Source of the DNA: Urechis unicinctus
Taxonomy: Eukaryota; Annelida; Polychaeta; Xenopneusta; Urechidae
Assembly (NCBI GenBank): GCA_034190875.2
Contig: CM067344.1
Coordinates: forward strand, 22,561,606-22,625,605
Direction of reading: 5' to 3'
DNA: 64,000 bases
The position numbers and the translations under genes were made by a program. The notes under the pieces were generated by a model. That model was not told the origin of the DNA. It did no database searches and saw nothing but the letters and a program-made list of their open reading frames with translations. Below, one piece after another: positions 351 to 7,003 of the stretch; the stretch's first letter is position 1, and every line of letters starts with the position of its first letter.

Positions 351-1086
351 ATGGCATGTCAGCGGGAGAAGTTACATGTTACCATAGTCATGGTGATTAA
401 TTGGTCCTTACCCTTCCTACTTATATGCCTTTTCTTGGAAGCAGCTCTACCGTATGAAAACATTAACTCAGGCCTGAGAGAAGTTCCATCAGATATTCCC
501 GAGAACAGCACAGAGATCAGTCTGGATACAAACAATATAACTTCACTGACGCCGAATCAGTTCAACGCATTTCCGGTACTGACAAAAGTCTCCCTCAGAC
601 AGAACAAGATATCGTCCATACCCGAAGGTACCTTCAATGGAACGCGTCTTAGCATCCTCATTATGAATCGAAACGCGCTGGTGGAGGTTCCAAATTTGAC
701 TGTCGTGTGTGACTCTCTAACAGAGTTGCAATTGCGGAATAACAAAATCAACTCAGTGGACAATTTGCGGTTTCTTCATCGACTGGAAAGGATACAGCTT
801 CACAGAAATCAGCTAACTTATGTTCCTTACGACGCTTTTGCGGGTATGATATCTCTGCTGAGGTTTGGAGCCATTGGGAACATGCTTGAGACGATTCCGA
901 ACCTTACAGACGTTTACACGAATAACGTCCTTTTTGAACTGAACAACAACAATTTTATTTGTGATTGTCGGTTGTCGTGGATTGCCAAGCAGACGCGGAT
1001 TCAAGCTCCTTTGTTGTGCACACGGCCAGACTATCTACTAGATACTCCACTTTCCAATTTAACCAGAGCTGATCTTATCTGCAACG
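351..1086 (+). CDS. LRR exon, cassette copy 1 (signal peptide, LRRs, C-terminal cap)
   Basis: First coding exon of a predicted LRR/TSP1 membrane protein. The ATG at 351 is chosen because copy 2 starts at the equivalent position (6267) and a long hydrophobic signal segment follows (residues ~10-34). About seven LRRs of LxxLxLxxN type cover residues ~50-205. They end in a CDCRLSW cap with two further cysteines, typical of LRRCT domains of secreted or membrane proteins. A classical cysteine-rich N-terminal cap is not visible. The ORF could read on to a stop at 1139, but the cap is complete at 1086, where AACG is followed by GTAACA. Splicing there leaves phase 1, matching the acceptor at 2089. 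Likely role: extracellular ligand recognition; the ligand is unknown. Confidence 0.85.
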
Positions 1087-2088
1087 GTAACATCGCTTTG
1101 CATTACCTAATCACTCCTAAATGCATAATCACTCAGTGATCACCCTGCAATGTGTTTTATCACTCATCAATGTCTTATCACTATTCAATGCCTCAATACT
1201 CATCAATGCTTTATCGCTCCTCATTGCCTTAGCAGAATTGATGGTCTTAACACTCACTGCCTCATCACTATTCAATGCCGTAACACTTCCCGATTCCCAA
1301 TTATTTTTCAGTGCCTTATCACAGCTCATTTGCCCTTATCATTCCTCGCTTCATAACTTACCGATGCCTAATCACTTTTCACTACCCAGCTGTCACTACC
1401 TCATCTCTTCTTGCTCTGTATATCATTACCCATCTTGTGCTTTTGGTCATAACCTCGTAAAGTACTTATTTCCCGCATAGAATCTACTCACCATCGTACA
1501 TTTCAATGAGTCCAATGGTTTTCTTAACAATGCTATTAGGAGATACTACGCCGGCTACTTTACATGACCAACGCTCATATATAATCATGAACTATAAATG
1601 TAACATTAGTAGAAATATAATTCATACATTTTGGCTGGCATCAAACACAACCACCATTGCTTTGTATTGTCGCTCGCCCCGTCGATATCACCATATTTCT
1701 TCCGTTATCATGAAGCCTATGGCGACGATCCCAAGGATCTTGAGGGCACCGTCTGTGCCATGATCAGATGATGTCAGTGACATAGATGGCCGTGATAAGT
1801 TACCACGTAGCCAGTTTAATCAGAGGATCACAATGTTGAGCCTAATGCCATCATAATTGGTCACAAGGTTCACAAAACACATTTCACTTCTAGCATCAGA
1901 CGCCGAAGAAGTTTATTATGACAAACCCCTCTTCCCTGTGTGCTTTACTACCAAGTATGCCTAATCTTTGATCTTGTTGTTATTCACCGCCTTTGTGTCT
2001 CCCGTTGGTGTTAGAACCTGCTTTACTTGACCTGACCATCTGAGTAAACCGTGCTGGAAAAGGGTTGATTTACTTCACGGTGTCACAG
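1087..2088 (+). other. Intron between LRR exon and stalk exon, copy 1
   Basis: The intron starts GTAACA and ends TGTCACAG. By hand comparison it differs from the copy 2 intron (7004-8005) at only about 20 of 1,000 positions, far less than the neighbouring LRR exon. A 119-codon ORF inside it (1121-1480) consists of low-complexity repeat and is not considered coding. Confidence 0.75.
1100..1345 (+). repeat. Degenerate ~20-bp tandem repeat in intron, copy 1
   Basis: Repeated variants of TTATCACTCATCAATGCC run through the 5' part of the intron. The same array is present in copy 2 at about 7017-7262, so it predates the duplication. Confidence 0.6.
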
Positions 2089-2529
2089 ATCAAGCAAGTA
2101 CACCGGACGTCACGAGTATTTCGGACGTAACCAGCTTGGCAGACGTGACAAGTTCGCCAGACGCAACAAGTTCGACAGTACCAAGTCGGCAAGATATGAC
2201 AAGTTCGCCAGACACAAGTCGGCAAGACACAACAAGTTCGCCAGACGCAATAAGTTCGTCAGTAACAAGTCCGCAAGACACAACAAGTCCGCAAGACACA
2301 ACAAGTATGTCAGACACAAGTCGGCAAGACACTACAAGTTCGTCTGACGTAATTAGTTCTCAAGACATATCATATTCGACAACAGCATCGACATCCTCTG
2401 GTGAAACAATGACAACAGTAAACACAAGTACTTCAAATACAGCCAGCACTTTATTCACAATAACGGAGTTGAAGACCATGGGAATGTCGACAGGTCGAAT
2501 CGACATGACACCTTCAGTCCTTCCCACTG
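2089..2529 (+). CDS. Ser/Thr-rich stalk exon, copy 1
   Basis: A 441-nt exon (147 codons) bounded by CACAG/AT and CACTG/GTGAGT, phase 1 at both ends. It continues the LRR exon frame exactly (G+AT gives Asp). The product is dominated by Ser, Thr and Asp in short repeats related to DTTSSPD and SRQDTTSS. It looks like a mucin-like, O-glycosylated stalk holding the LRR domain away from the membrane. A symmetric phase 1-1 exon can be skipped, duplicated or exchanged without breaking the frame. No second TSP1 or membrane exon lies between here and copy 2. Confidence 0.78.
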
Positions 2530-3081
2530 GTGAGTCAGACATGGTAGATGTGTGTACGCATGCGTGCTGATTAGATGGTGTATTTGTGTGTCTCGAAGTT
2601 ACATCAAATCATAGAATATTCATTTTTTTGACGACGTTTTGCATCTTAGACACAGTGATGTGCCAACAGATATAGATGTGCCAAACCCACAATCACTGAT
2701 TTGTATCAATAGTCGACCTACAAGTGTTAGCTGTCACCCACTGCCCCAAATCATGGTGTTGAACAAATTGAGCATCCAGTCACAGGGACCTATAGATACA
2801 CAAGGTATATATAGGTCGGAGAATTTTCACAATGTGACCGGATTCGTTAACACATACTGATGCTAATGTCCATGAATAGTAAAATAATCTGAATCTTATA
2901 TATTTACAAGCATTATTCCATTAGTTATTAGTGGTATTCAAAATTTACTGACATTATGTATTTGTTTCATGCGTACAACGATTTTTATTCAGTGCAGAAA
3001 TATTCGTTGGTATGACATTACATGTCTGCTTTGATCTGTTGGATAGGTATAGGACTTTTCGAGGCAATGCGCAGCCCAATG

Positions 3082-5562: not shown

Positions 5563-5590
5563 CCCCCCCCCCCCCCCCCCCCCCCCCCCC
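5563..5590 (+). repeat. Poly-C tract (28 nt)
   Basis: An uninterrupted run of C. Similar runs occur at 18461-18482 and 35703-35728. Confidence 0.97.
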
Positions 5591-6266
5591 ACCGAATTAT
5601 TTCCGCGAGATTGATCTAGCCAAGAGAGGAGATTTTAGGAGTCCAGAGACGAGAATCTGACCGAGTTCTCAGTGAAGCTTCATTATTGAAAACGTAACAG
5701 CACATCAATGAATAAACATCAAAATAAGAAAAGCCCAGAAATTAAAGATTATGATAGACGCCAGTTCATAAAAAGAGCGGACGATGGTTTGATGAATTGG
5801 TCGACTTGTTTAGAAAAACAATGTGTATCGCTTCCTTTCTAGCATTTTGGTTTCTTGATTCATATACCTAACTTTCTCTCATTCTCTTATTGCTTTCCTA
5901 TTCAACCCCTCTTCTATTTCTTGCTTACTCACTCATGCCTACCTCTCTCGCAATCACCAGTTAACTCTCGGGTCCCCATTCTCTCTCCCTGTACCTCTCC
6001 ACCTCTTTCTCCTTTTCTGGTTCCATCGGTGTTTGTGTGGATATTCCCGTAACAAGGTCATAACAGACAAAATTATTGTTTTGTACGTCAAGTGCGGTGT
6101 ATATTGATACCAATTGGATAACCACTATGCATACTTTAAATGATGCAGTGCTGTTCTTATGAACGTTTCCACTAGTATTCTGGCTGTTTTTGTTTTGAGT
6201 CATCGAGAGTGAATTCAACCGTGCTGAATTTTTTCAGACATTTTCCATTGCACTAACCAGTGCATC

Positions 6267-7003
6267 ATGGCATGTCAGCGAGTGAAGTTACATGTTCCCG
6301 TAGTCATGGTGATTAATTGGTCCTTACCCTTCCTACTTATATGTCTTTTCTTGGAACCAGCTCTACCGTATGAAAACATTAACTCAGGCCTGAGAGAAGT
6401 TCCATCAGATATTCCCAAGAACAGCACAGAGATCATTCTGGATACAAACTATATAACTTCACTGACGCCGAATCAGTTCATCGCATTTCCGGAACTGACA
6501 AAAGTCTCTCTCAAACAGAACAAGATATCGTTCGTACCCGACGGTGCCTTCAATGGAACGCTCCTTAGCATCCTCAAAATGATCCAAAACGCGCTGGTGG
6601 AGGTTCCAAATTTGACTGTCGTGTGTGACTCTCTAACAGAGTTGTATTTGCAGCGGAACAAAATCAACTCAGTGGACAATTTGCGGTTTCTTCATCGACT
6701 GAAATGGATATATCTGAACAGAAATCAGCTAACTTATGTTCCTTACGATGCTTTTGCGGGCATGATATCTCTGCGGGGGTTTGTAGCCGTTGGGAACATG
6801 CTAGAGACGATTCCGAACCTCACAGACGTTTACACGAATAACGTCCTTTTTGAACTGAGCAACAACAATTTTACTTGTGATTGTCGGTTGTCGTGGATTG
6901 CCAAAGCAGACGCGGATTCAAGCTCATTTAATGTGCACACGGCCAGACTATCTACTAGATACTCCACTTTCCAATTTAACCAGAGCTGATCTTATCTGCA
7001 ACG
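6267..7003 (+). pseudogene. LRR exon, cassette copy 2, frameshifted in the cap
   Basis: Counterpart of 351-1086. Signal peptide and LRRs are open and well formed. About 31 of the first 213 residues differ from copy 1. In LRRs 3-6 the changes sit only at x positions of LxxLxLxxN. An extra A in the AAA run at 6903-6905 (copy 1 has AA) shifts the frame just after CDCRLSW, so the cap cysteines are lost and translation stops at 6989, before the donor at 7003/7004. The rest of the cap and the splice site are preserved. It may be a recent pseudogene, an allele, a truncated secreted form, or a sequencing indel in a homopolymer. Confidence 0.75.

Follow-up and report, generated by a model that had tools for sequence, protein, structure and literature searches.

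A duplicated leucine-rich repeat exon precedes a single thrombospondin–transmembrane set

The window analysed here is a 64,000-nucleotide stretch of the Urechis unicinctus genome (C3:22561606-22625605, where C3 is the window's own contig; the genome searched comprises 1.19 Gb in 926 contigs). It contains a 2.5 kb direct repeat (91-2614 and 6024-8513, 94.3% identity), each copy of which carries a leucine-rich repeat (LRR) exon and a Ser/Thr-rich stalk exon. Both LRR-stalk pairs stand 5' of one single set of thrombospondin type 1 (TSP1) and transmembrane (TM) exons. Together, the exons are predicted to encode a single-pass surface receptor, and it is the difference between its two LRR exons—concentrated on exposed "x" residues of the repeat motif LxxLxLxxN—that is of interest. 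The features of the locus are as follows:

91..2614, + strand: duplication copy 1 (upstream flank, LRR exon, intron, stalk exon), 94.3% identical to 6024-8513
351..1086, + strand: copy 1 LRR exon (signal peptide, cysteine-less N-cap, seven LRRs, LRR C-cap); open frame, donor after TGCAACG (phase 1)
648..923, + strand: copy 1 LRR3-6 (codons 100-191); 14/14 replacements relative to copy 2 lie on x
2089..2529, + strand: Ser/Thr-rich stalk exon of copy 1; both ends in phase 1, no Pfam match
6024..8513, + strand: duplication copy 2, from self-comparison of the window
6267..7003, + strand: copy 2 LRR exon; extra A at ~6903, frame shifted, stop at 6987-6989
6564..6839, + strand: copy 2 LRR3-6
8006..8428, + strand: stalk exon of copy 2, shorter than that of copy 1 by an in-frame deletion of 18 nt
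9411..9602, + strand: TSP1 exon a (TSPa), one in the window; phase 1, family pN/pS 0.50
9719..9931, + strand: TSP1 exon b (TSPb), one in the window; phase 1, family pN/pS 0.15
10174..10412, + strand: transmembrane and short-tail exon, to the stop codon; family pN/pS 0.38 (first 64 codons)

The LRR exons end in phase-1 donors, and phase 1 is kept at every junction of the stalk, TSPa, TSPb and TM exons. The predicted product has 606 residues in the order signal peptide, LRR, stalk, TSP1, TSP1, TM and tail (signal peptide and TM assigned by eye). Its LRR identity rests on a Pfam LRR match and a predicted LRR solenoid model, and its TSP1 domains on two stretches matching PF00090 (E 7.5e-17). The gene model is supported by an upstream relative, G1, in which an LRR exon, a stalk-like frame, TSPa, TSPb and TM follow in the same order, with junctions matching by eye. 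A Pfam scan of the TSP1-TM-tail part returned TSP1 families only, with no TIR domain, and the frame ends at 10412. In the tail of the TM exon, a run of A is longer than in the related copies G1, G2 and m480, placing the last residues in a different frame.

The single extra A in copy 2 leads to the premature stop listed above and leaves the LRR C-cap incomplete. The stretch between 2614 and 6024 yielded no TSP1 or TM exon, so a copy 1 transcript would have to skip copy 2 in splicing to gain a membrane anchor. With two LRR-stalk pairs ahead of one TSP1-TM set, use of the pairs as alternative first exons is possible. An assembly artefact, in which two alleles have been placed in tandem, is unlikely because the shared sequence is just 2.5 kb long and the flanks outside it do not match.

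Among the matches listed in protein-database searches (21, 39 and 5 matches; in the search with 21, the scored candidates were the 7989 sharing most words), none carries both LRR and TSP1 Pfam domains; the TSP1 part matched animal proteins. Likewise, no description of an LRR-stalk-TSP1-TSP1-TM build appeared among the open-licence papers listed in literature searches on LRRs with thrombospondin.

Replacements between the two LRR exons fall on the x positions

We defined x as positions 2, 3, 5, 7 and 8 of the LxxLxLxxN register in all seven repeats (35 codons), and compared the two exons over 212 codons, ending at the copy 2 frameshift. A sequence-only reading of this locus had estimated ~31 differing residues in 213 and 7-9 silent codon differences, with every replacement in LRR3-6 on x and the intervening loops unchanged. 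The count bears these figures out, with replacements at 31 codons and silent differences at eight. Each of the 14 replacements within LRR3-6 sits on x, which makes up 20 of the 92 codons (hypergeometric 3.1e-12), while the non-x codons contain no replacements and five silent differences. For the LRR part in its entirety, x takes 17 of 26 replacements (35 of 160 codons; hypergeometric 1.3e-7), and five of these 17 replaced x codons carry two or three base changes. By counting, the replacement rate (dN) at LRR3-6 x codons is 0.53, against a whole-exon silent rate (dS) of 0.08. The excess of replacement is restricted to x, because the whole exon has a dN of 0.075, a dS of 0.080 and thus a dN/dS of ~0.94.

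Divergence along the duplication is uneven. Summed over alignment windows, the copies differ at 35/282 sites (12%) over 91-390, 45/700 sites (6%) over 391-1090, and 24/1482 sites (1.6%) over 1091-2590. This gradient indicates homogenisation of the 3' part of the duplication, and makes the intron an unfair neutral yardstick for the LRR exon; we therefore rejected its use as such.

Relatives on C3 and elsewhere in the genome

The window copies (W1, copy 1; W2, copy 2) belong to a family cluster of ~144 kb at 22.428-22.572 Mb on C3. Its other members include four near-full-length copies (G1-G4, G1 lying upstream) and a partial one (G5p). Three of the six near-full-length LRR exons are open (W1, G1 and G3). 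Besides these, the cluster contains incomplete copies and additional TSP1-TM sets, of which two lie on the opposite strand; 29.8 kb of the upstream 150 kb reads N.

More distant LRR exons, 37-40% identical to the window copy, occur on another chromosome, C8. Families of these exons lie at 42.84-42.92 and 64.53-65.03 Mb (L009-L021, L023 and L030). Fifteen C8 loci were taken, of which seven were assigned to a set C8a and seven to C8b; L009 fits neither by eye and was excluded. Three of the seven C8b copies (L021, L023 and L030) contain stops or frame breaks, and further partial C8 matches lie outside the sample. That the C8 LRR genes carry the same TSP1-TM stem is unsupported: among the TSP1-TM matches listed (of 203), those on C8 lie only at 19.7 Mb, a long way from the LRR exons; a stem search of 1.5 kb downstream of the 15 LRR exons gave just two weak matches (E 0.12 and 0.19).

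Among the same listed matches, TSP1-TM relatives were found on C16 and C1. One C16 copy (L048, C16:51699001-51702000) has the TSP1-TSP1-TM order and, by eye, a similar juxtamembrane sequence. Clusters of TSP1 exons lie at C16:51.63-51.82 Mb and C1:21.05-21.75 Mb.

A tandem array of ~1.65-kb units, each with the 3' third of an LRR exon, is present on contig C186 (L046 and L047) and at C3:22457127-22461658. Contig and chromosome carry almost the same sequence here, and the 11 partial LRR fragments compared (eight from C186, three from C3) are near-identical repeat units sharing nearly all of their differences from the full exons.

Elsewhere in the window, self-comparison revealed a tandem array of 70-bp period (24073-24998) and a dispersed repeat pair (16705-17318 and 47868-48507; 90% identity across ~640 bp). 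An open frame at 55236-55703 matches LRR_6 (E 6.5e-6), and a minus-strand open frame of 458 residues (15374-16750) is without a Pfam match. An Rfam scan of the window at gathering thresholds gave no matches.

Codon models place the excess chiefly on the copy 1 lineage

A custom-written, fixed-site codon model was used to compare omega (dN/dS) at x codons (omega_x) with omega elsewhere, treating gapped or stop codons as missing. The C3 set consisted of seven copies (W1, W2, G1-G4 and the partial G5p), excluding other C3 fragments. All p values are nominal, each for a single test, and several tests were made.

Across the seven C3 copies, omega_x is 1.52 versus 0.53 elsewhere (difference p=2.7e-7). 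When the register was shifted in twelve ways, in some cases overlapping x itself, omega was 0.35-1.02. The seven C8b copies behave similarly, with omega_x 1.51 versus 0.57 (difference p=2.5e-6; omega_x>1 p=0.053). The W1-W2 pair alone gives an omega_x of 6.24 (p=3.2e-6). With the window copies as foreground on the maximum-likelihood (ML) tree, omega_x is 3.42 (p=0.005 versus background; >1 p=5e-4), and on a tree joining W1 and W2 it is 5.04 (p=9.5e-7); background omega_x in these tests is ~1.1. Leaving out G5p raises the C3 value to 1.76 (p=0.008), and restricting the set to the open frames (W1, G1 and G3) gives 2.12 (p=0.0065).

Base changes unique to single copies point to copy 1. Copy 1 has ten replacement changes on x (in nine codons), five elsewhere and only two silent, while copy 2 has four, one and three, respectively. 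The corresponding numbers (x replacement/other replacement/silent) are 3/6/8 for G1, 2/6/2 for G2, 6/7/7 for G3, 2/4/7 for G4 and 0/9/3 for G5p. Of all 21 pairs, W1-W2 shows the lowest silent difference (0.071) together with the second-highest x difference (0.253; W1-G3, 0.270).

The stem presents a different picture. Mean pairwise pN/pS is 0.50 for TSPa (six copies), 0.15 for TSPb (four copies) and 0.38 for the TM exon (first 64 codons, six copies). These sets exclude TSPb of G2 and m515 (broken or partial) and TSPa of m515, while the broken m515 and p523 are kept in the TM set. Purifying selection acts on the TSP1 and TM exons of the stem, in contrast to the changing LRR face.

A lineage-dependent signal of selection on a candidate recognition face

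The selection signal at x is real, but it depends on lineage and is not uniform across the family. The sequence-only reading had proposed diversifying selection on x; this stands for the window pair, chiefly for copy 1, but not as a general property of the family, and of the two C8 sets, C8b resembles the C3 family whereas C8a shows no effect. The pattern known from plant resistance genes, omega>1 at x and not elsewhere, is seen in the pair and branch tests and is marginal over the family. The best-supported reading is that a burst of x change occurred mainly in the copy 1 lineage, under what would be recent positive selection. We favour, with some confidence, the view that the cluster is a tandem birth-and-death family of single-pass, germline-diversified surface recognition receptors, whose tail has no recognised signalling domain. 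The receptor's role is probably in defence; this is suggested by the pattern of change, which self or gamete recognition would fit equally.

A possible though appreciably less probable alternative is that the same selected receptor serves in self, mate or gamete recognition, or in neural adhesion, rather than in defence. SALM, Slitrk and LINGO fit the predicted LRR model about as well as the variable lymphocyte receptors (VLRs) do, and TSP1 domains are common in adhesion proteins. Conversely, birth-and-death clusters with broken copies are usual for defence genes, albeit not specific to them.

Several observations weigh against selection as the explanation. Firstly, within the pair, the pattern is absent from LRR1-2, where x holds only two of ten replacements. 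The silent rate is also raised inside x codons (dS 0.16 over the 35 x codons and 0.19 over those of LRR3-6, from 3.2 and 2.2 path-averaged changes, respectively), so that the local dN/dS at x is ~2 rather than 4 (2-3 including LRR3-6). Secondly, over the seven C3 copies omega_x exceeds 1 only marginally (p=0.041), and it falls to 1.27 without W1 (p=0.30) and to 1.13 without both window copies (p=0.63). The C8a set shows no excess: omega_x is 0.50 versus 0.44 elsewhere (seven copies; difference p=0.74; omega_x<1 p=0.046). Thirdly, three of the six near-full-length C3 exons have broken frames (W2, G2 and G4). Finally, the nodes of the C3 ML tree are weakly supported (45-85), and the trees assume no recombination, though divergence along the duplication is uneven; with weak nodes and likely recombination, the branch results are approximate.

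The leave-out values, the near-unity background, the broken copies and C8a would all fit relaxed constraint alone. In that case, the exposed x residues would tolerate near-neutral change that the constrained framework does not, and the window pair would be an extreme reached by chance. We nevertheless consider this unlikely, given the omega_x of the pair, the ten unique x replacements of copy 1 against two silent changes exon-wide, the value obtained from open copies only, and the multiple base changes in some replaced x codons. Gene conversion—the import of short tracts of a diverged paralogue into the x strands of copy 1 (or copy 2), rather than selection in place—would suit the short clusters of change at the same register of LRR3-5 and the homogenised look of intron and stalk in both copies, and the N stretches in the C3 cluster could conceal a donor, but it seems improbable in that no donor for the copy 1 LRR3, LRR4 or LRR5 blocks occurs in 49 records (304,038 non-N letters with overlaps counted twice, a very small part of the genome), where the nearest non-self blocks have four (LRR3) and three (LRR4) mismatches and LRR5 has none within four.

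Under the favoured reading of a selected recognition receptor, the concave beta-sheet face of the LRR domain would bind a ligand that keeps changing, with a pathogen or symbiont as its most likely source. The stalk and the TSP1 pair may hold this sensor off the membrane, with the signal relayed through a partner protein. Copies 1 and 2 could serve as alternative first-exon cassettes for the single TSP1-TM set. A more speculative extension, which we put forward only tentatively and think rather doubtful, is an undescribed animal variable-head, constant-stem system: several rapidly diversifying LRR-stalk first-exon cassettes would splice onto one constant TSP1-TSP1-TM module, relatives of which would be reused on C16 and C1 with other ectodomains.

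Comparison with known recognition systems

Besides somatic diversification in lymphocytes, the features that mark VLRs include (i) a cysteine-containing N-terminal LRR cap (LRRNT), and (ii) a germline gene that is incomplete, with diverse LRR cassettes on its flanks serving as templates. As to the first, the copy 1 product contains no cysteine at residues 35-60, and no conserved cysteine column precedes C204 in 16 family sequences. As to the second, the LRR exon is complete and open, and the 11 fragments compared, all from sequence outside the N stretches, are near-identical. A VLR-like template library is rejected for the sequence examined, the C186 and C3 fragments being near-identical copies of the ~1.65-kb repeat. 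The likeness to lamprey VLRs drawn by the sequence-only reading thus extends to the fold and, presumably, the binding face; judged by the features above, the predicted receptor is not a VLR. It differs from lamprey and hagfish VLRs, and from the amphioxus VLR-like Bf66946 as described in PMC4731796, in its complete germline exon, its N-cap without conserved cysteine, its TSP1-TM stem, and the lack of diverse cassettes among the fragments compared.

Toll-like receptors share with the predicted receptor an LRR ectodomain and a transmembrane helix, and TLR3 and TLR8 are among the structural matches of the predicted model; they differ from it in that here no TIR was found, the tail is short and TSP1 domains are present. 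The polymorphic transmembrane clusters of Biomphalaria snails are similar in that their genes encode single-pass membrane proteins that vary extracellularly and are proposed to be recognition receptors (PMC10875847). They are, however, described there with FN3, C-type lectin and Ig domains, and the word thrombospondin has no occurrences in the main text of that paper.

Plant nucleotide-binding site (NBS)-LRR clusters offer a close parallel in pattern. In the coffee SH3-CNL cluster, Ka/Ks>1 is reported only at residues of the xxLxLxx motif, in 19 of 66 paralogue pairs, and, as here, x-confined Ka/Ks>1 is accompanied by birth-and-death evolution, frameshifted copies and gene conversion (PMC3113787). 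The plant proteins are intracellular, whereas the product predicted here is an animal surface LRR protein on a TSP1-TM stem. Selection acting almost wholly on x, as documented in such plant resistance genes, is encountered here in a predicted animal receptor. The few residues singled out by the present analysis, and the compact cluster to which they belong, make recognition specificity open to direct testing.

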